Part shown: positions 29,579 through 63,883 of the stretch, in pieces
How the letters are laid out: each line of letters starts with the position of its first letter
Position numbering within the stretch: position 1 is the stretch's first letter
Assembly (NCBI GenBank): GCA_021811525.1
Contig: JAJZOK010000151.1
Coordinates: 6,294 to 70,293 of the forward strand
Reading direction: 5' to 3'
From: Thermoplasmata archaeon
GTDB lineage: Archaea; Thermoplasmatota; Thermoplasmata; Thermoplasmatales; Thermoplasmataceae
Length of the DNA stretch: 64,000 nucleotides
Notes under the pieces: generated by a model
Seen by the model: the letters and a program-made list of their open reading frames with translations, nothing else
Database searches by the model: none
What the model was told of the DNA's origin: nothing
Program-made: the position numbers and the translations under genes

Positions 29579-31072
29579 ATGGTAGAGGAACAGCCGCCGG
29601 TCCAGAGTGAGAAAGCTTCAGGGAATCACATCCTTTCCCAGTACACCCTCAATCATGAAAACGTCAGGATAAGGGTTGTGGAGATGGCTGGAACTTCGGA
29701 ACTGATTTACTTGGTAGAAGAGCCGAAGCTTAGTAAGCGCGAACTGGAGGAATTCTTTGCGCTCAAGGCCGAGATCAATGACTATCTTCCCGATATTCTG
29801 GTGCTGTCTGGCGTCGATGGCTTCAACCTGAACAATATGCTCTCCTCTTTCGTTAACCAGAGAAGGCCTTGGCTTAAAGGCGAATCAATTTTCAAGATAA
29901 ATTATTACCTCGCGAGGGATTTTCAGGGATATGGGATCATAGACCCTATTGTCAGGGACCAGAAAGTAGAGGATATTTCATGTGATGGCCCGGAGATGCC
30001 AATATTCGTCTACCACAAGGATTTTGGTTCCGTAAAGACAAATATTTCATTTCCCAACACAGAGAACTTAGATTCGTATATCATAAGGCTAGCACAGATT
30101 AGCGGCAAGTCCGTTTCAATAAATGCTCCAATACTGGATTCCATCACACGGGATGGCCACAGGGTCCAGGCGGTTTATGGAAGTGAAATTTCCAGCAGAG
30201 GGCCGGTTTTTACAATGAGGCTTTTCAGAGACAGACCCTTCACCCCTGTTGACCTCATCAAGAGCGGCACTGCCTCCCCCGACCTCATGACCTACCTTTG
30301 GTTCATGACAGAAGGTTTCAATTCTGCCCTTATCGTGGGTGCCCCTGGCGCCGGAAAAACATCCACGCTTAATTCCATACTCCTCTTCGCGCCTTCGAAT
30401 ACCAAGGTGTTCAGCATTGAGGAGACCCGGGAACTGAAAATTCCGCATGAAAACTGGGTAGCTGCTGAAACCAGGGGAAAGAATACGATAGAAGGGCAAA
30501 GGGGTGTTGAAAGGTTGAACATGTATGACCTGGTTTCAATGGCAATGAGGCAGAGGCCAACATACATAGTTGTAGGAGAAGTAAGAGGCAAGGAAACCTA
30601 TGCCCTTTTCCAGGCAATGGCAACCGGCCATACCACATACTCAACAATTCATGCGGATTCCATGGAATCCCTCCTGAACAGGCTCGAAAACGAACCAATG
30701 AATATTCCAAGAGTGCTTGTGTCCTACCTTAACATTGTGATCTTCATCAATTTCGTACGCCTTGAAGGTAAAATGGTAAGAAGGATCACTGAAGTAGATG
30801 AGATAATTGGAATAGATGGAAAGACCGATGAGATCCTTTACAACAGAGTCTTCCACTACGACCCTTATTCCGACAAATTCTCTTATGCTGGATCCAGCAA
30901 ACTCTATGATCGAATAGCAGAGCGTAGAGGGGTAACGAATTCGAAACTTCTGGAGGAAGTTCGAAAGAGAACCGGACTGCTTCTTACTCTTTCCCAGAAG
31001 AAGGAAGCTGACATAGAAGAGATATCTGGAGAGATAAGGAAGAGGCAGTGGGAATGGATCAGGGGTGAGTGA
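29579..31072 (+). CDS. Type II/IV secretion (pilus/archaellum-like) ATPase 1
   Basis: This 497-residue hexameric secretion ATPase of the GspE/PilT/FlaI superfamily has Walker A GAPGAGKTST (about 258-267), Asp box FSIEETREL, Walker B YIVVGEVRG and an intact His box GHTTYSTIHAD. An N-terminal domain of about 200 residues precedes the core, with the family pattern GYGIIDPIVRDQKVEDISCDG. It energises pilin assembly at the inner face of the membrane. It leads a four-gene operon. The next start lies inside its last codons (8-base overlap). TATA-like CTAAATATTATACCC precedes a leaderless ATG. Confidence 0.92.
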   Translation: MVEEQPPVQSEKASGNHILSQYTLNHENVRIRVVEMAGTSELIYLVEEPKLSKRELEEFFALKAEINDYLPDILVLSGVDGFNLNNMLSSFVNQRRPWLKGESIFKINYYLARDFQGYGIIDPIVRDQKVEDISCDGPEMPIFVYHKDFGSVKTNISFPNTENLDSYIIRLAQISGKSVSINAPILDSITRDGHRVQAVYGSEISSRGPVFTMRLFRDRPFTPVDLIKSGTASPDLMTYLWFMTEGFNSALIVGAPGAGKTSTLNSILLFAPSNTKVFSIEETRELKIPHENWVAAETRGKNTIEGQRGVERLNMYDLVSMAMRQRPTYIVVGEVRGKETYALFQAMATGHTTYSTIHADSMESLLNRLENEPMNIPRVLVSYLNIVIFINFVRLEGKMVRRITEVDEIIGIDGKTDEILYNRVFHYDPYSDKFSYAGSSKLYDRIAERRGVTNSKLLEEVRKRTGLLLTLSQKKEADIEEISGEIRKRQWEWIRGE

Positions 31073-31982
31073 TCTGCGGGGTTTTGGGGCAAAAGGCACA
31101 AAGAAGGCTGAGTTTTTCAGGATTCCGCTCTTCAGGCAGATTTCACTCAAGATGTTTGGCAAATTCTTTAGCCAGAGGTTCAACGGAGGAAACATCGATC
31201 TGAATCTTAGGAGGTCAAAGCTTGGGATGAGCCGGGTGGAATTTTATTCGCAAACTGCAATGATCCTTACCATCGCGGCAATAGTCGCGGTTGCCCTTGA
31301 CATCATTATTTTGCTTTCGAGGCCACATCTTGCCTTCCTTATAGGCTCCATTACATTCCTTGCGCTTGCTGCTGTCCTAGCAATTCTCCTTGAGACCCCA
31401 AATACAATTATCAGGACTAGGAGGAGAAGGATTGATTCCATGCTAACAATTGCATCTGGCTTCTTTGCCACCATGTCTTCCGCCGACATCCCCATTGACA
31501 TCATAATGAAGGATCTCGGTGAAAGCAGGCAATATGGCGAGATATCTCGTGAGGCACGGGCCATTTGGATCAGGTCAGAACTCTTTGGCGTGGATATAAT
31601 TTCATCCATAAAAGAGAGCATTCGCACTTCGGCCTCGCAGAAATTCGCAGAATTTCTTCAGGGAATTGTAACCAGCGTTAATTCTGGCGGAGACCTGAAA
31701 CAGTACTTCATTTCAAAGGCAACCCAGTACCAAGGGGAATTAAGCACAATCATAAAGCAGAATTCCAATTCAATGGGCATACTTGCCGAAAGTTTTGTAA
31801 CTGTTGCGGTTGCTTTTCCCCTGATTTTACTTATTATTGTGGGCATTGTGGCATTCCTGTCCCCCGGTTCGCCATCGGGGCTCATCTCACTAATGGTCTT
31901 AACGGTCGCATTGATAATACCCGCAATACTCGCAGTTTTTGGATACTTTTTCAGCAGCACAATGGGGGAGATCGAGTTATGA
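31065..31982 (+). CDS. Secretion platform protein 1, GspF/TadC type
   Basis: This 305-residue membrane protein has a basic cytosolic N-terminus (about 1-55), two membrane helices (about 62-110), a cytosolic type II secretion F-domain (SMLTIASGFFATMSSADIPIDIIMKDLG through KFAEFLQGIVTSVNSGGDLKQYF) and two C-terminal helices (about 240-300). It holds only one F-domain, whereas archaeal FlaJ-type platforms usually carry both in one chain. The start is GTG within GGGGTGAGTG overlapping ATPase 1. Its end overlaps the next gene by four bases. Confidence 0.85.
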   Translation: MSDLRGFGAKGTKKAEFFRIPLFRQISLKMFGKFFSQRFNGGNIDLNLRRSKLGMSRVEFYSQTAMILTIAAIVAVALDIIILLSRPHLAFLIGSITFLALAAVLAILLETPNTIIRTRRRRIDSMLTIASGFFATMSSADIPIDIIMKDLGESRQYGEISREARAIWIRSELFGVDIISSIKESIRTSASQKFAEFLQGIVTSVNSGGDLKQYFISKATQYQGELSTIIKQNSNSMGILAESFVTVAVAFPLILLIIVGIVAFLSPGSPSGLISLMVLTVALIIPAILAVFGYFFSSTMGEIEL

Positions 31983-32803
31983 TGAGCACAAGATACATGG
32001 CCATCCTTTCCTCGATTGTAGCCGTTGCTTACTTTGCCATGAGTGAATTTGCCATTGGAAGGGTGGATTCAACCCTCGGAAATCTTGCTTTTGCAATCCC
32101 AGTAGCTCTTGCGATTTTCATGATTCCAACTGGTTTTGCCAGGCGGACTATAAATTCAAGGATTTCAGAAGCCAGAAAGAGAGTTTCAGATTTTCTGAGA
32201 GACCTTTCCGAGTACACCATGTATGGGACACCCCTATCTGAGGCTGTGATTCTGGTTTCAAGAAATGACTATGGCGCACTGAACCCTGAAGTGAGATCTC
32301 TTGTGTCAAGCGTTTCAGTTGGGACCCCGGTTGAGGAAGCACTGAGACACTTCGGGGGCAACCTGAAGGATCCGGAGATCCAGAGGTTTGGAATCATACT
32401 GCAGAAATCCGGGGAATCTGGAAGCAACACTTCGGACGTAATCGCACTAGTGTCCAGGTTCAGTTCCCAGATGCAGCTGCTCGATGAGGAGAGAAATGCA
32501 GAGATGAAGAATTACAACCTTATACTGTTGGTTTCATTTTCAGTTTTCCTCATAGTTATGCTTGTGATCGATGTGAGATTCTTCAATGCCATCCACTTGC
32601 AGAACACAGGCGGATTCCTTTTCCAGTCCGCAGGGGCGAAAGTCCTGAAGAACATTTTCAATACCGGGATATATGTTGAAGCAGCAGGGATTGGGTTCAT
32701 AATAGGGCTTATAAAGGACAGAAACCTGGTAACAGGATTCATGGAGACAGGGGCAATGCTGTTTGTCAGCGCAATTATCCTTCTCATAGCGGGGGCACTT
32801 TGA
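31979..32803 (+). CDS. Secretion platform protein 2, GspF/TadB type
   Basis: This 274-residue protein is built like its upstream neighbour: two N-terminal helices (about 6-55), a cytosolic F-domain (RVSDFLRDLSEYTMYGTPLSEAVILVSR through FGIILQKSGESGSNTSDVIALVSRF), and C-terminal helices (about 178-274). With platform protein 1 it would make the equivalent of one FlaJ/AapF-type platform or a TadB-TadC heterodimer. ATG overlaps the preceding stop (ATGA). Confidence 0.85.
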   Translation: MMSTRYMAILSSIVAVAYFAMSEFAIGRVDSTLGNLAFAIPVALAIFMIPTGFARRTINSRISEARKRVSDFLRDLSEYTMYGTPLSEAVILVSRNDYGALNPEVRSLVSSVSVGTPVEEALRHFGGNLKDPEIQRFGIILQKSGESGSNTSDVIALVSRFSSQMQLLDEERNAEMKNYNLILLVSFSVFLIVMLVIDVRFFNAIHLQNTGGFLFQSAGAKVLKNIFNTGIYVEAAGIGFIIGLIKDRNLVTGFMETGAMLFVSAIILLIAGAL

Positions 32804-32805
32804 CC

Positions 32806-34248
32806 ATGGTGGAAAAAGAGGAAAATATACTTGAAAAATACGAACTCCTTGACTCCCTGGTCCAGGTGAGAATTATTAGTGAAGCATCCACCGTCAAGTA
32901 CGTAGTTTCAGAAGAGCGCCCATTTGAATCTGAAAGGAAGGCCATAGATTCCATTATAAGCAAGTACCGCGAAGAAAAACTCAAGGGTTCAACTGATGAT
33001 TTTGTTGAGTACGCGAGCAAGGACGGAACATACAAGTCCCTGGACCGCAGGGGTTTGTACTTCCTGGACAGGTACTACCTGGGCTACGGGATAATCCAGC
33101 CTTTAATGGTTGACCCGCGCATCGAGGATATTTCCTGCGACGGTGCAAATGAGTCAATATTTGTCTTCATAAAGGAATATGGCCATATTGAAACAAACAT
33201 CAGGTTCAACACCGAAGACAGCCTTAACTTCTTCATAAGGAAAATTGTGCAGGATGGCGGCAAACAGATTTCCGTATCGGTTCCTGTAGTTGAAACTGCC
33301 CTTAAAGACGGATCAAGGGTATCCGCTTCTCTTGGGCGCTATGTTACCACCAGGGGTCCAAGCTTTTCCATCAGGAGATTCAGGGAGGTTCCAATAAGCC
33401 CCATTGATCTCATGGAGCTTGGATCAGTGAACTCAACCATTCTTGCTTACCTCTGGACCACTATAGACTATGGGGCGAACATAATGGTTGTTGGAGGAAC
33501 CGCAACTGGAAAAACCACTTTCCTGAACGCAATCCTGAGTTTTGTATCACCCGACAACAAGATTGTTACCATAGAGGATACTAAGGAGCTCAACCTCATG
33601 CATGAGAACTGGATCTCGACAGTCGCAAGGAACAGCAGCGGGATTTCAGGCACGGATGATTCAAACTTGTCCAGGATAGACATGTTTGATCTTCTGGAAT
33701 CTGCACTTCGCCACAGGCCAAACTATATTGTGGTTGGGGAAGTGAGGGGACCGGAAACCTTCACAGTTTTCCAGGCAATGCTAGCAGGCCGTTTTGGGAT
33801 GGGCACTTTCCATGCAGATGATATTGAAACATTCATCCACAGGCTGGAAGCCAGGCCCATTTCCATACCGAGGACCCTTATTGCCTCCCTGAATACTGCA
33901 GTTATCCTGGATACATATTATTCAGGAGGGAAGTTGATGAGAAGGGTGAAGGAAATTGCGGAAATCGTCAATGTAGATCCTGGGACAGGAGAATTGATAG
34001 TGAACATGGTTTCTGGAAAGAATCTTCAAAACATCAGCCCTGATTCTTTTGACAGCCATGTTTTCAGGACAATTTCAGCAAGGGAAGGAGTTCCATATGA
34101 CGAGATTGTAAGGCAGATGGGCCTCAGAAAGAAAATCCTGGACAGAATGGCGGAGAGCGGAATAAGGAAGTTCGATTCCGCTAGAAAGGTCTTTGCACTC
34201 ATGAAAACTAATGAGAAACTTTTGCTGGACCAGCTAGGGATTCACTGA
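32806..34248 (+). CDS. Type II/IV secretion ATPase 2 with divergent His box
   Basis: This 480-residue second ATPase is clearly homologous to ATPase 1 along its length: GYGIIQPLMVDPRIEDISCDG, Walker A GGTATGKTT, Asp box VTIEDTKEL and Walker B YIVVGEVRGPE. Its His box differs: GRFGMGTFHADD against GHTTYSTIHAD in ATPase 1, losing the GH pair and the Ser/Thr run. The pair may have split roles, for example extension and retraction or a regulatory subunit. ATG 32806 is preferred over the TTG at 32800 that overlaps the previous stop. It ends the operon and overlaps the convergent antiporter by seven bases. Confidence 0.9.
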   Translation: MVEKEENILEKYELLDSLVQVRIISEASTVKYVVSEERPFESERKAIDSIISKYREEKLKGSTDDFVEYASKDGTYKSLDRRGLYFLDRYYLGYGIIQPLMVDPRIEDISCDGANESIFVFIKEYGHIETNIRFNTEDSLNFFIRKIVQDGGKQISVSVPVVETALKDGSRVSASLGRYVTTRGPSFSIRRFREVPISPIDLMELGSVNSTILAYLWTTIDYGANIMVVGGTATGKTTFLNAILSFVSPDNKIVTIEDTKELNLMHENWISTVARNSSGISGTDDSNLSRIDMFDLLESALRHRPNYIVVGEVRGPETFTVFQAMLAGRFGMGTFHADDIETFIHRLEARPISIPRTLIASLNTAVILDTYYSGGKLMRRVKEIAEIVNVDPGTGELIVNMVSGKNLQNISPDSFDSHVFRTISAREGVPYDEIVRQMGLRKKILDRMAESGIRKFDSARKVFALMKTNEKLLLDQLGIH

Positions 34249-54958: not shown

Positions 54959-55942
54959 TTAATCACCCTGAAAAAGAAGATACTGGCTGCTGAATGAGTT
55001 TAACAGAAGATTGCCGCTGAAGGTTACTGAGAAAGATGTGTTGGATGCAGATGCAACAAATGGGCTTCCAGCAAAACTCCAGCCTGGAAGTGCCACCGCA
55101 GTGGCGTAAGGGGCCCTGCTGTTGTTGTACTGGGAAAAGAATGCATAATCCCATGTCTTGGCTAAAGTGCCATTGAACGTATAGTTCAGCGAGTGCAGCG
55201 ACATGTTATTTACCGTGTATACTGCACCGGAGGATGTAACTGATGTTCCGTTTGTGAAATAATCAACAATACTGGTGTTTGCCAGTAGGTTCACAACCTG
55301 TGAGCCAGTAGAGGAGAATATTTCAGAGGAACCTGTTAGTCCCATGGCCGACAAGCTAATGGAGTGCCCTGAAGACCCTCCTGTAATGCCTAAAGGAAGC
55401 GGGCCGAGATTGTCAGCCGGCTGGTTGTTCCCGTATAACTGGAATAGGGAGCCGTCTTCCACCAGGTAATTTATTGCTGTGATATACTGTGTATTGCCAT
55501 TTGAAAGCATGACTCCGGCTATCCTGTAGGACAGATTGACGTAGTTTGAAGTGTGCGTGCCTCCTGTGCCGGTGAGGTTAAGCAGTAGGCTCGCTGTGAT
55601 GGACGCGTTAAAGGCTGCACTAGATGGCAGTATGGAGAGCTGTGTGTCACTGGCCTGGGAGAATATAGAAACACCAGAGATCCCAAGTGGAACAGTTGCA
55701 CTCAGAATTGAACCGGCAGCTATTGATGGTGAATGCAAATCAGAGACCAGGCTTCCCAGTGCTGCCTTATTCAGGGTCTCGTAATGCGTTTCATTGGCAG
55801 TTTCCTGTGCAGGGATATACCATACCATGAAACTGGTGAAAAGTGTTATGAGGACAGCAAATAGGAGAATAGCGCCTATAACTTCCGCTACCGCCTTGTC
55901 TTCCTTTTTATACGGAATGCTGTAAAACCTGCCTCTTTTCAC
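54959..55942 (-). CDS. Archaeal type IV pilin-like exported protein
   Basis: From GTG 55942 the protein has 327 residues: a short basic leader (VKRGRFYSIPYKKED), then KAVAEVIGAILLFAVLITLF, matching the archaeal Pilin_N signature (DKAVSPVIG type) cut by prepilin peptidase before the hydrophobic helix. A Ser/Thr/Asn-rich exported beta-domain of about 270 residues with many sequons follows. TATA-like TTATTAAG lies 28 bases before this GTG. The frame extends to ATG 56074, adding 44 atypical residues, which I reject. The protein is large for a pilin and may be a minor pilin or adhesin exported by the 29.6 kb operon. Confidence 0.75.
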   Translation of the reverse strand: MKRGRFYSIPYKKEDKAVAEVIGAILLFAVLITLFTSFMVWYIPAQETANETHYETLNKAALGSLVSDLHSPSIAAGSILSATVPLGISGVSIFSQASDTQLSILPSSAAFNASITASLLLNLTGTGGTHTSNYVNLSYRIAGVMLSNGNTQYITAINYLVEDGSLFQLYGNNQPADNLGPLPLGITGGSSGHSISLSAMGLTGSSEIFSSTGSQVVNLLANTSIVDYFTNGTSVTSSGAVYTVNNMSLHSLNYTFNGTLAKTWDYAFFSQYNNSRAPYATAVALPGWSFAGSPFVASASNTSFSVTFSGNLLLNSFSSQYLLFQGD

Positions 55943-56042
55943 TCTTGTTTGGTATGAACTGGATGTCTTAATAAGTTTTGGCACGTGGGCTTTGTATTTC
56001 ACTTTACTTGGAACGGGATGCCGGCTTGACCCCCTGAACAGG

Positions 56043-56065
56043 TTTCCCGGGAAAAGTGTTTTTAT
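56043..56065 (+). promoter_or_regulatory. Palindrome and TATA-like box before the 56081 gene
   Basis: TTTCCCGGGAAA (56043-56054) is a perfect palindrome followed at 56059-56065 by TTTTTAT. The spacing suits a transcript start near 56087, close to the start of the downstream gene. Confidence 0.35.
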
Positions 56066-56080
56066 CCTCTCCATATGACC

Positions 56081-58229: not shown

Positions 58230-58460
58230 TTAAAGTGTTTTCTGGAATCCTTCTTTCCTGGGGAAGAATAGCTCATTGTCTTTCCTTGATTTTATTACGT
58301 CCATCAGGGTGTAAACTGCCTTTACTTTGCCTTTTTCCACAACCTTGTATGGTGACGAGAAGTTGAAGCAGAGTGTGCATTCCGTGGGAAAACCTGCATG
58401 AAAATAGCACCTGGCATCCTCATAGAACATGCACTGCGCCTGCAATGAGCCTGAAGTCAT
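58230..58460 (-). CDS. Small Cys-rich protein coupled to the STAND ATPase
   Basis: This 76-residue protein has four Cys and one His spaced C-x7-C-x2-H-x6-C-x2-C in the first 31 residues (QCMFYEDARCYFHAGFPTEC, then TLC), likely a metal or Fe-S site. A basic/acidic helical tail with VIKSRKDNELFFPRKEG follows. The ATG at 58460 overlaps the ATPase stop (ATGA), so translation is coupled; the longer frame to 58496 lies inside the ATPase gene. No family recognised. It may sense redox or metal for its partner. Confidence 0.6.
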   Translation of the reverse strand: MTSGSLQAQCMFYEDARCYFHAGFPTECTLCFNFSSPYKVVEKGKVKAVYTLMDVIKSRKDNELFFPRKEGFQKTL

Positions 58461-61024
58461 AGAGAAGGTACCCTCTTGCCTATGATCTCCTTGCATTTAA
58501 TAAAGTATGAGTAACGGTCCATGCCATCTTCCATCTCAATTCCAGCTGGCATCAGTCCCATGAGGACCATCACCGCTAAATGTATGGTTGACTCTGGCAT
58601 GCTCTCCCTGTCCTCCTTGGATAGTTCATCACTGCAATATTTCATGAACATCTGGGTAATATTCTGGTAAATCACAGTATCCTTGCCTATTGTATACCCG
58701 TTTCCAACAACTTCAAGGAGTTTTTCCTTGTCTCCCTTAATGAGGTGCTCGATAGCCTGCCCCAGGCGTGCTATTGCAAATCCCATGGAGTCACCAAGGG
58801 AATCCGCAGTTTTCACGAGCCTTTCAAAAGCAGCATGAGCCCCTTCAATGTCTGCTTTCAGGCTGTGGTGTATGCCAGAAAGGAGATACCAGGTGGGGAG
58901 AAAGTCATCCGCTTCCGTTATTTCCAAATCCATTATGGATTCAAGCTCCTTCTTGATCGCTTCATTCAGGGTAGGCTGCACAATTATATACAAGCCTCTG
59001 GCCAGTTTCTCCTTAGCTTTGTTGCCTATGGACTTTGAAATCTTGAGGAGCTCTTCTGCGTACTTGACGCCACTGGGATAACTCATCATGTCGAATGAAG
59101 CCATGGTTGCAAACCTGAAGAATGGGTAAGAAAGATTGCTGTCCCCAAGCATCCTCACAAGGCCTGCGGCTCCGGGGAAGTGTGACATGAAGTCCTCCTT
59201 CCTGCCAATGTTGTAATAGATTTCGCAAAGGTTGTAAGTTGCATATGCCCTTGAAACCAGTTCTCCTGAAATGTATGATTTCTCGATGATTTCTGTGAGC
59301 ATCTTGGCTGATTGCTCAAAGTCTCCCCAGTAGCTGTAAATGATGGCAATATTATTGAGCATGAGAAGCTCCCTATCGTAGAACTTGAATTCCTGGCATA
59401 GCTTCAGGGCTTCCTCGTATTCCTTGAGAGCCCCCTTAAGGTCAAATTTCTTGATCTTTAGAGTGCCGAGAGTCCCATATCCGTCTGCAATGAGCTCTGA
59501 AATGTTATTTTCCTTTGCTATCTTGATGGTTTCTTCTGCCGCCTTTTCCCCTTCCTCAATGTTGTTAAGGAAAGAGTGCCCAGTTGCGATTGTTAGCCAT
59601 GCGGAAGCCCGGTCATAAGGCTCCAGTGGCTCTTCCCTGAGCAGGTCCATGCACATGTCAATAGCATCCTGGTAACGGTCAGTCCTCTGCGCCAGCTTCG
59701 CTGCACTGAGCTTTGTGAAGACAGGTTCAACTGCAAGAAGGTCTGGGTCATTGTAAATTTCAATGGCGTCCTCAAGCCTCCCAAGGTTGAAGTACGACTG
59801 TGCGGACAGGATTGCGAGGTGAGCCTTTGCCTCCTTGCCGGATACAAACTTAGAAAGGTTCATGAACAGATCCTGGGGAAAACCGACATAGCTCAACTTG
59901 TCTATGAATTTCCTCCAGTTCCCGTTGACCAGTTCCTCTATGCGTTGGGGGTCCTTCCTCAATTCGAAGACCTTTAGTTTGGTAATGAACGGCAGATTTG
60001 AAAATCCAGGCTGCTTTAGGAAAGTTTCGCTGATGATGTATCCGCCATTTGAATAGACGGAGTTCATTATGATGTCTGAAACACGGTTGTTTACCATGCT
60101 GTAATTTGCAGCTCGCTCTGTAACAAGGCCGATGTCCCGGAGCTTTTCAAGTGCGTCCAGAACTTGGCTGACCTCAAGCTGGGCAAGTGTAGATATGAAA
60201 GTTGGGGACATTTCTTCCGGAATGAGTGCCACGATCTCAACTACTTTCCTTTCTCCGTCGCTCAGGTCCCTGATTGCTTTGTCGAACCGGATCTCTGAAC
60301 TTGGCGGGATTGGAAAATACCTGTAGGTTACTTCCTCAAGTTCTCCGCTGGAATTTATTATTCCCTGTTCCTCATAGTATTTCAGGGTGTATACAAGGGA
60401 ACGTATATTCCCGTTTGTCAGTCGGAAAAGTTCCTGTATGAAGCTGGATGGCAGATTATACTTCATATTCTTGAGCAGGGCCCTTGTGTCCTCCAGGTTG
60501 GTCCTCTCATAATTGATTATCTGGATATCCGGTTCAGCGCCCACTAGATTCAGGAATCTCACAATTGAGCTGCCATCCTCTACATTGTCTTCAGTTATAG
60601 TTCCGAAAATTGAAAACCCCAGCTTCGGGGCGAGCCTGGATATGTAAATGAAAAGTTCCCGTGAATGCTGGAGCATGTTTTCAAGGTTATCTATAATGAA
60701 GAAAGTTCGTGATGCAACTTCCTCATTTAGCGTGGAAAATTCCTCTACAATCTGAGGAAGGGACCTTTCGTTGAACTGTTTGTGCAGCTGGTTTAGCAGT
60801 TCATTGTAAGCCTGGTACATGAGGGCTTCACTGGAAGCGTAGGACCGTGTCCTGTAGACTCTGAAGCCCTGGGCCTTTGCATTTACCTCTATTTCATTGA
60901 GGATCTGCGTTTTTCCAGTGCCCTCTTTGCCCAGGAATACGAAGGAGCGCCCCATAAGCTGGCCGTTGGCAAGCATGTCCAGAAAGTACTGGTGTGCGCC
61001 CCTGTAATTGAAAAGCTTCTGCAT
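58457..61024 (-). CDS. STAND-type ATPase with TPR repeats
   Basis: The protein has 855 residues. An N-terminal AAA/STAND NTPase has Walker A GKEGTGKTQ (about 33-41), Walker B TFFIIDNLE (about 110) and helical and winged-helix parts (about 270-330, VVEIVALIPEEMSPTFISTLA, then VLDALEKLRDIGLV). From about 400 the rest is TPR-like helical repeats (AYGTLGTLKIKKFDLKGALKEYEEAL type). STAND proteins of this build act as signal-gated switches, as in MalT or adenylate-cyclase-linked regulators, but no output domain is visible. ATG 61024 is preferred over TTG 61033. A TATA-like AACTATTAAGTAC lies about 35 bases upstream. Confidence 0.75.
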   Translation of the reverse strand: MQKLFNYRGAHQYFLDMLANGQLMGRSFVFLGKEGTGKTQILNEIEVNAKAQGFRVYRTRSYASSEALMYQAYNELLNQLHKQFNERSLPQIVEEFSTLNEEVASRTFFIIDNLENMLQHSRELFIYISRLAPKLGFSIFGTITEDNVEDGSSIVRFLNLVGAEPDIQIINYERTNLEDTRALLKNMKYNLPSSFIQELFRLTNGNIRSLVYTLKYYEEQGIINSSGELEEVTYRYFPIPPSSEIRFDKAIRDLSDGERKVVEIVALIPEEMSPTFISTLAQLEVSQVLDALEKLRDIGLVTERAANYSMVNNRVSDIIMNSVYSNGGYIISETFLKQPGFSNLPFITKLKVFELRKDPQRIEELVNGNWRKFIDKLSYVGFPQDLFMNLSKFVSGKEAKAHLAILSAQSYFNLGRLEDAIEIYNDPDLLAVEPVFTKLSAAKLAQRTDRYQDAIDMCMDLLREEPLEPYDRASAWLTIATGHSFLNNIEEGEKAAEETIKIAKENNISELIADGYGTLGTLKIKKFDLKGALKEYEEALKLCQEFKFYDRELLMLNNIAIIYSYWGDFEQSAKMLTEIIEKSYISGELVSRAYATYNLCEIYYNIGRKEDFMSHFPGAAGLVRMLGDSNLSYPFFRFATMASFDMMSYPSGVKYAEELLKISKSIGNKAKEKLARGLYIIVQPTLNEAIKKELESIMDLEITEADDFLPTWYLLSGIHHSLKADIEGAHAAFERLVKTADSLGDSMGFAIARLGQAIEHLIKGDKEKLLEVVGNGYTIGKDTVIYQNITQMFMKYCSDELSKEDRESMPESTIHLAVMVLMGLMPAGIEMEDGMDRYSYFIKCKEIIGKRVPSL

Positions 61025-61100
61025 CTGCCACAAAGTATTGATTAGAGTACTTAATAGTTATTTCTTGTACCCATTGCATGGTCAGGATCTTGGCATTAAG

Positions 61101-63244: not shown

Positions 63245-63385
63245 TGAAACACATATGGCTAGGACGTTAAAATATTATGCGAATTTTCAATATTTTACGG
63301 ACTCCCTGCCATTATGTATGAAATTATGCATGTTCATCTGCCTGTAATAAATTTTAAATCTTGATGTGTGCTTAAAACCCTGCAT

Positions 63386-63883
63386 ATGAGGAAAATAGTG
63401 AGCCGGGAGGATAAGGCTGTCTCCCCAATTATAGCAACAGTCCTTCTTGTTGCAATCACAGTTACCATGATTGCCACCGCTTACACCCTGCTGGAGAATT
63501 ATATTCCAAATCCGGTGCCGAACACTCCAACCGCGGCACTTAAGGTGGTCTACAACACCCAACCCATCGGTAGCCTGAATTATGGAAATTACACAATTTA
63601 CATAAATTCCTTAAATGGAAACGTTTCTGTCAGTGATGTGGATCTCATAGTTACGCTATCAAACAACACCGTGGATGAAATTGGCCTGGGGCAGGTATAT
63701 GCCAATGCTGATTCTTTCAATTACAGCAATTATATCACGGTTTCCTTGCAAAGCAGTGCCGGGTACCTGACGAGCACAAGCTTTGTGGAGCTGTACCTGC
63801 ACAACTCGCAGAGCCACATAACCAGAATTGCGCTGGTTGACACATTTACTGGCGGGTCAATAGGGAGCACCACATTCCAATAA
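63386..63883 (+). CDS. Archaeal type IV pilin
   Basis: This 165-residue protein has a textbook archaeal pilin start: MRKIVSREDKAVSPIIATVL, then a hydrophobic helix to about residue 38. Prepilin peptidase should cut near RED-KAVS. The mature part is Asn/Ser/Thr-rich with several sequons and beta strands (YGNYTIYINSLNGNVSV). TATA-like TTTTAAAT lies about 30 bases before ATG 63386 (leaderless), so the frame from 63368 is rejected. It is a plausible major subunit for the 29.6 kb secretion operon. Prepilin peptidase is not in the window. Confidence 0.88.
   Translation: MRKIVSREDKAVSPIIATVLLVAITVTMIATAYTLLENYIPNPVPNTPTAALKVVYNTQPIGSLNYGNYTIYINSLNGNVSVSDVDLIVTLSNNTVDEIGLGQVYANADSFNYSNYITVSLQSSAGYLTSTSFVELYLHNSQSHITRIALVDTFTGGSIGSTTFQ

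Follow-up and report, generated by a model that had tools for sequence, protein, structure and literature searches.

A two-ATPase pilus motor operon found across the Thermoplasmata and a candidate reason for its second ATPase

A motor operon with two ATPases and a split platform

We analyzed a stretch of 64,000 nucleotides (nt), hereafter the window, from a Thermoplasmata archaeon of the family Thermoplasmataceae (GenBank assembly GCA_021811525.1, contig JAJZOK010000151.1, positions 6,294 to 70,293 of the forward strand). Within it, four genes on one strand encode two secretion ATPases, E1 and E2, and between them two one-domain platform proteins, Fa and Fb (Table 1). An initial annotation had described this quartet, and the four genes proved to be real: E1 and E2 each matched Pfam T2SSE (94.9 and 112.9 bits), and Fa and Fb each matched T2SSF with one domain (43.9 and 55.1 bits), all above the cut-offs. 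On the ArlJ model NF004704 (555 columns), Fa covers columns 12–235 and Fb columns 272–546, which identifies them as the N- and C-terminal halves of a platform. The genes, first described as overlapping, do nearly touch; the start of E2 is most likely ATG 32806, which gives 480 amino acids (aa) as in the closest homologues, and Fb and E2 would therefore lie 2 nt apart. Both His boxes read as originally quoted, GHTTYSTIHAD in E1 and GRFGMGTFHAD in E2. Each window ATPase carries the complete residue set, except for Arg at the first His-box His of E2.

We compared both ATPases with known families. E1 and E2 scored 355 and 329 bits against archaeal GspE2, 272 and 245 against FlaI, and 121 and 138 against CpaF/TadA, and the nearest solved structures were 2oap (archaeal GspE) and FlaI, followed by CpaF. 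The TadA/CpaF-family model TIGR03819 gave 155.9 and 151.5 bits (cut-off 373.15) and the PilT-family model TIGR01420 gave 40.7 and 44.7 bits (cut-off 319.1). On these scores and the better GspE2 and FlaI matches we rejected Tad or PilT kinship, and the suggestion that the operon resembles bacterial Tad more than archaeal systems was abandoned. The operon is not of the archaellum type either: E1 and E2 reached 367 and 338 bits on the ArlI equivalog model (cut-off 550), and the platform is split. An archaellum-type locus is present elsewhere in the host genome (1.73 Mb, 89.6% complete), with an ArlI at 723 bits and a fused ArlJ at 581 bits, both over a cut-off of 550; the quartet is thus a second, separate system. 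The ratio of nonsynonymous to synonymous substitution rates (dN/dS) was of little use for the window operon itself, as dS was unusable in 15 of 16 comparisons with relatives.

Table 1 Features of the window discussed in the text
Feature	Position	Strand	Remarks
E1, FlaI/GspE2-type secretion ATPase, CdiPE1-type	29579..31072	+	497 aa; Pfam T2SSE
E1 P-loop	30338-30364	+	
E1 Asp box	30416-30436	+	
E1 arginine-finger helix	30545-30559	+	MRQRP
E1 Walker B	30569-30589	+	
E1 His box	30626-30658	+	GHTTYSTIHAD
Fa, one-domain platform protein, N-terminal half of ArlJ/AapF type, CdiPFa-type	31065..31982	+	305 aa
Fb, one-domain platform protein, C-terminal half of ArlJ/AapF type, CdiPFb-type	31979..32803	+	274 aa
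E2, second secretion ATPase, CdiPE2-type	32806..34248	+	480 aa from ATG 32806; open reading frame (ORF) 32800-34248, 482 aa, opens at TTG 32800
E2 P-loop	33493-33519	+	
E2 Asp box	33571-33591	+	
E2 arginine-finger helix	33706-33720	+	LRHRP
E2 Walker B	33730-33750	+	
E2 His box	33787-33819	+	GRFGMGTFHAD, first His replaced by Arg
X, large pilin-like protein	54962..56074	-	Hidden Markov model E 1.9e-18; 20.7 kb from E2
PilA-type pilin	63368..63880	+	Pfam Pilin_N 32.1 (cut-off 25.2); class III signal-like motif EDKA/VSPIIATVLLVAITV

Comparison with described systems

Comparable pilus loci have been described in Cuniculiplasma divulgatum and in Aciduliprofundum boonei, the latter a member of the same class as the window organism. 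The C. divulgatum genes CdiPE1, CdiPFa, CdiPFb and CdiPE2 were reported in 2025 (PMC12448462), and the same cluster, CSP5_0712-0715, had been compared with Aciduliprofundum in 2016 (PMC5155288). In CdiP, as in the window operon, the two halves of a split platform (N before C) stand between the two ATPases on a single strand, and the pilins are encoded apart from the motor operon. The four-gene layout is therefore not new: it is published for an archaeal pilus, a finding that the initial annotation had named as refuting its interpretation. In the mixture-model tree described below, E1 and E2 of C. divulgatum S5 fall into the same E1 and E2 clades as two loci of the window's genus (support 100/100 each); the window is represented there by these congeners, one of which (L112) is 81–82% identical to window E1 and E2. 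Between the window and the C. divulgatum S5 genome, E1 and E2 are each 47% identical. According to the 2025 account, no other reported archaeal operon has two ATPases, and why a second is needed is enigmatic (PMC12448462). The A. boonei pilus locus, like the window, holds two distinct ATPases (PMC4858521).

Split platforms have been described for other archaeal pili and for Tad (PMC4858521, PMC6668835), and one-domain platform pairs are common in euryarchaeal pili (PMC4858521). Of the features first singled out as odd, the second ATPase stands; the split platform does not, being common in single-ATPase relatives. Those relatives (clade 2 of PMC4858521, a Methanophagales contig and 23 loci found here) have the same E-Fa-Fb order and the same protein families, and differ from the window in having one ATPase only. 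The archaellum ArlI/ArlJ has a homologous ATPase and platform, but a single ATPase and one fused two-domain platform protein. Bacterial Tad (CpaF/TadA, TadB, TadC) shares two one-domain platform proteins and a related ATPase fold, but has one ATPase, and its sequence is much further from E1 and E2 than archaeal FlaI and GspE2 are. What is new here, compared with the published account of CdiP, is the occurrence of the pair across the class and a candidate reason for the second ATPase. In searches of the open literature, which did not extend to subscription papers and preprints, we found no description of a heteromeric ATPase of type IV filaments or of the losses in Thermoplasma presented below.

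Co-retention of the two ATPases across the class

We examined 151 genomes with E1 as query, namely 77 of the window family, 15 of family f4, 18 of family f2 and 41 picked by hand from 32 other families; the hand-picked genomes were chosen after match counts and lean to genomes with several ATPases. The bias is visible in family f11, where the pair occurs in two of three picks yet 13 of 14 genomes have no match at 1e-60. By hand tally, both ATPases are present in 115 of the 151 genomes, including five of Thermoplasma and one (G409) with broken frames. A further ATPase locus in the G409 genome is broken too, which makes sequencing error likelier than pseudogenes. Thirty genomes have neither ATPase, and five have one at a contig end (G401, G411, G279, G399 and G330). 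A single ATPase in intact context occurs in one genome only, G015, which has E1-Fa-Fb without E2; E2 was not found elsewhere in this genome, which is 81% complete. G198 keeps both ATPases, though its E1 lies on another contig, away from contig ends.

Seventy-nine quartets were assembled, counting that of the window. In all 79 the four genes share a strand and follow the same order, with gaps of at most 30 bases at the three junctions in 78, 77 and 78 of them; the loci were selected for two ATPase hits on one contig, so that the order, not the frequency, is the result. The quartet occurs across the class Thermoplasmata.

We also fetched a non-random sample of 36 stretches from other classes of the phylum. 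A single ATPase was found in 25 of them (23 complete E-Fa-Fb loci, one cut by a contig end and one with a fused platform), a quartet in three (families f39 and f54) and a tandem E-E-Fa-Fb arrangement in eight (f45, f52 and f48). The 23 complete single-ATPase loci show that the split platform is common. In the Methanophagales contig, E-Fa-Fb is followed by no second ATPase within the next 3.9 kb. The fused platform is a 587-aa protein (L224:4184-5947) that matches both the Fa and the Fb model and lies beside the single ATPase.

Ancestry of the two ATPases

We built a mixture-model tree of 98 proteins from 32 of the 79 quartets and other loci, with the archaellum and the window's own proteins left out. 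All 32 E1 and all 32 E2 proteins fall on one side each of a branch with support 100/100. This result fits one E1/E2 duplication before the radiation of the class. Thermoplasma E1 groups in the E1 clade (99/99) and Thermoplasma E2 in the E2 clade (100/99) on long branches, in a tree with 23 other quartets. FastTree had placed E1 and E2 of the window family near the root; the mixture model puts the family inside the class clades, and we discarded that placement as probable long-branch attraction.

The f48 tandems are separate in the tree (100/100), and by this topology they are an independent second duplication. Tandem ATPases before a split platform were seen in L194 and L197-L201 (f48, with the main motifs kept in both copies) and also in L195 and L196. 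In the f39/f54 quartets and the f45/f52 tandems, the two copies are placed near E2 by the tree and have the Ser of E2 at the DGxR site; in the His box, copy p2 has the Lys of E2 and copy p1 the His of E1. Grouping p1 with E1 was not rejected by the approximately unbiased test (p 0.084).

Class-wide asymmetry between E1 and E2

In E1 as well as E2, the Walker A Lys and Thr, the Asp-box Glu, the Walker B Glu and Arg, the second His and the finger Arg are preserved across the 79 pairs. The first His-box His is kept in 74 of 79 E1 proteins and is Lys or Arg in 64 of 79 E2 proteins. Asymmetry was quantified by family-weighted entropy over the 79 quartets, with 5–95% bootstrap intervals over families. 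Three segments were more variable in E1 than in E2, namely the P-loop (entropy 0.43 and 0.06), the Asp box (0.38 and 0.15) and the arginine strand of the N-terminal domain (0.51 and 0.41). Another three were more variable in E2, namely the arginine-finger helix (0.32 in E1 and 0.50 in E2), Walker B (0.29 and 0.47) and the His box (0.26 and 0.49). The bootstrap interval crossed zero in none of the six segments.

Reciprocal residue losses in Thermoplasma

Five Thermoplasma genomes (genus g4, L251-L255, the first being T. volcanium) carry a diverged quartet in the same order with both ATPase ORFs intact. In all five, E1 has lost the Walker A Thr, the Asp-box Glu, the Walker B Glu and Arg, the second His and an Arg of the N-terminal domain, and retains the R-Q-R-P helix and the first His. 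E2 shows the reciprocal state in all five: the eight cis residues checked are present, and the finger Arg is replaced by Tyr. This Arg aligns with R347 of CpaF, which reaches the gamma-phosphate of the adjacent chain (PMC12019362); both its action across the subunit interface and its conservation in all type IV filament ATPases have been reported (PMC12019362, PMC11300603). The equivalent of CpaF D215, which steadies R347, is lost in Thermoplasma E1 and kept in E2.

The degenerate E1 is nevertheless maintained. In the two closest pairs of Thermoplasma genomes, dN/dS was 0.086 and 0.043 for E1 and 0.056 and 0.043 for E2; dS of the second pair is about 2.5, near saturation, and more distant pairs were mostly saturated. 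Judging from these ratios, the dead Thermoplasma E1 is under purifying selection. Its predicted structure (predicted local distance difference test, pLDDT, 82.3; predicted template modelling score 0.56) matches 2oap (E 6.4e-31), FlaI and CpaF, the underlying alignment having contained 15 intact relatives. Pfam T2SSE still matches below cut-off at residues 268-313 of the L252 E1 (profile 198-244) and at residues 271-321 of the L251 E1, a stretch that holds the arginine-finger helix, the Walker B segment and the first His. Thermoplasma E1 proteins belong to a family annotated as "type II/IV secretion system ATPase subunit", though they have neither the Walker A Thr nor the Asp-box and Walker B Glu.

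A probable mixed motor ring and its alternatives

The initial annotation had offered a heteromeric motor or opposing motors for extension and retraction. The reciprocal losses in Thermoplasma, the co-retention of the pair and the class-wide asymmetry argue for the former, and E1 and E2 are probably subunits of one heteromeric motor ring. The operon would supply a CdiP-like type IV pilus with its cytoplasmic and membrane motor. By homology, Fa and Fb together would form the split membrane platform, and E1 and E2 would be two subunit types of one ATPase ring beneath it. E2 would be the principal catalytic subunit, binding ATP through its own P-loop, Asp box, Walker B and second His, and E1 would supply the arginine finger from the neighbouring position to complete the E2 site. 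A mixed Thermoplasma ring would restore complete sites, which a homo-ring of either protein would not. In a mixed ring the dead E1 site needs nothing from E2, which would explain why the finger of E1 and the cis residues of E2 are kept and the others lost; an E2 homohexamer would be expected to retain its own finger. The division of labour would have gone to completion in Thermoplasma, and in the window both kinds of site may still work. The ring could alternate 3:3 or have a 4:2 composition, the latter fitting C2 symmetry, and its pilin subunits would come from distant genes, at 63 kb and probably also X at 55 kb.

The data above show homology, orthology, co-retention, reciprocal losses and purifying selection; that the two proteins share a ring, in what ratio, and that the window organism has such a ring are inferences. 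In the F1-ATPase alpha3beta3 ring, catalytic and non-catalytic homologues alternate. This other machine serves as an analogy for how E1 and E2 might work, and no kinship is claimed. For a wider proposal the chances appear about even: an obligate, F1-like heteromeric ring throughout the class, with hydrolysis by E2 and finger donation by E1, would have arisen by one duplication before the radiation and been completed in Thermoplasma, with an independent duplication in f48.

Several observations weigh against the mixed ring. The Thermoplasma genomes are one lineage and hence one evolutionary case rather than five, and the step from them to the window is an extrapolation to an operon in which both subunits look active. 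The P-loop Lys is still present in Thermoplasma E1, and in four of the five Thermoplasma E2 proteins an Arg one residue past the lost finger (TYRNP type) could substitute for it; T. volcanium has none. Nor are the losses cleanly complementary over the 64 invariant columns, of which E1 alone has lost 24, E2 alone 12 and both proteins 11, with 12 retained by both and 5 mixed; the argument rests on which residues are lost and not on column totals. On the class-wide scale, the cis element Walker B varies less in E1 than in E2, which counters a simple polarity, and the compared segments were defined after a first look at the columns. The exchange of the first His in E2 is not universal either: 15 of 79 quartets deviate, 10 of them with His, and we rejected it as a strict rule for E2. 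Finally, G015 retains E1-Fa-Fb without E2.

Opposing motors, in which E1 and E2 form separate homohexamers, one for extension and one for retraction of the pilus in the manner of PilB and PilT, are unlikely. Bacterial type IVa pili use two motors in this way, the idea was raised for C. divulgatum (PMC12448462), and both ATPases of the window family have full catalytic motifs. However, Thermoplasma E1 lacks the residues for ATP hydrolysis yet is retained under selection, E2 there lacks the usual interchain finger, and neither window ATPase is PilT-like by the family model. One ATPase powers both directions in Tad (PMC11300603) and apparently in Aap (PMC12448462), and twitching was reportedly not seen in C. 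divulgatum (PMC12448462). PilT losses have been noted in bacteria (PMC6668835), whereas here both ATPases occur together in 115 genomes and one alone only in G015.

Somewhat less likely still are two homohexamers that work together in a stack, an arrangement proposed for PilT and PilU, with the second ring adding force or coupling to the other half of the platform. PilT and PilU were tested and separate homohexamers were reported (PMC6821130). Such an arrangement would account for co-retention, but a ring of dead E1 cannot contribute force, and in Thermoplasma a ring made of E2 alone would again lack the usual interchain finger. That E1 regulates or scaffolds an E2 homohexamer from outside the E2 active site, with the dead Thermoplasma E1 as a pseudo-enzyme regulator, is improbable, for although pseudo-enzymes often become regulators and the shifted Arg in four of five Thermoplasma E2 proteins might act as the finger, the dead E1 retains the arginine-finger helix within the very stretch still matched by T2SSE below cut-off.

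A mixed ring would address the second ATPase, left unexplained in 2025, and the Thermoplasma sequences offer a specific and cheap test of a mixed-ring type IV filament motor in a cultured genus. Such a ring, if true, would constrain how the motor can cycle (C2 or C3), and with 3:3 alternation it could not run through the C2-symmetric rotary cycle that has been proposed for type IV filament ATPases. The comparison also shows that the database "ATPase subunit" proteins of Thermoplasma are without the residues of an ATPase.

Pilin candidates and flanking proteins

Two pilins had been suggested at 55 and 63 kb. The gene at 63 kb passes Pfam Pilin_N (Table 1); the one at 55 kb, X, fails it (16.3). 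L123 and L135 have homologues of the 63-kb pilin upstream of their quartets; the window pilin is 29 kb downstream of the operon. A scan of window ORFs below 500 aa found no pilin signal motif beside the operon. Pairwise, X has a single match to its family at 1.9e-9 and identities of 16–22%, and its predicted structure consists of a long N-terminal helix and strands at low confidence (pLDDT 47). Of the 78 quartet loci other than the window, 47 have a member of the X family in the fetched stretch (none of 27 in the window family, 47 of 51 in the others), usually directly before E1 and, in f4, after E2.

A KaiC-type ATPase with 18 members in 12 families (e.g. L156:12094-14037 and L158:344-2767) is encoded ahead of E1 on the E1 strand. 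It has a long, charged, coiled-coil-like N-terminal part, Pfam KaiC was matched in both members tested, and it may regulate the pilus. Another recurrent protein is very large, with a median of 1464 aa over 31 members in 19 families (e.g. L158:10874-15007), and is encoded about 6 kb after E1, on the opposite strand in 30 of 31 members. In the window, an 858-aa protein on the minus strand (58460-61033) has tetratricopeptide repeats that exceed the cut-off, and its N-terminus gives a weak AAA-like match that falls short of it.

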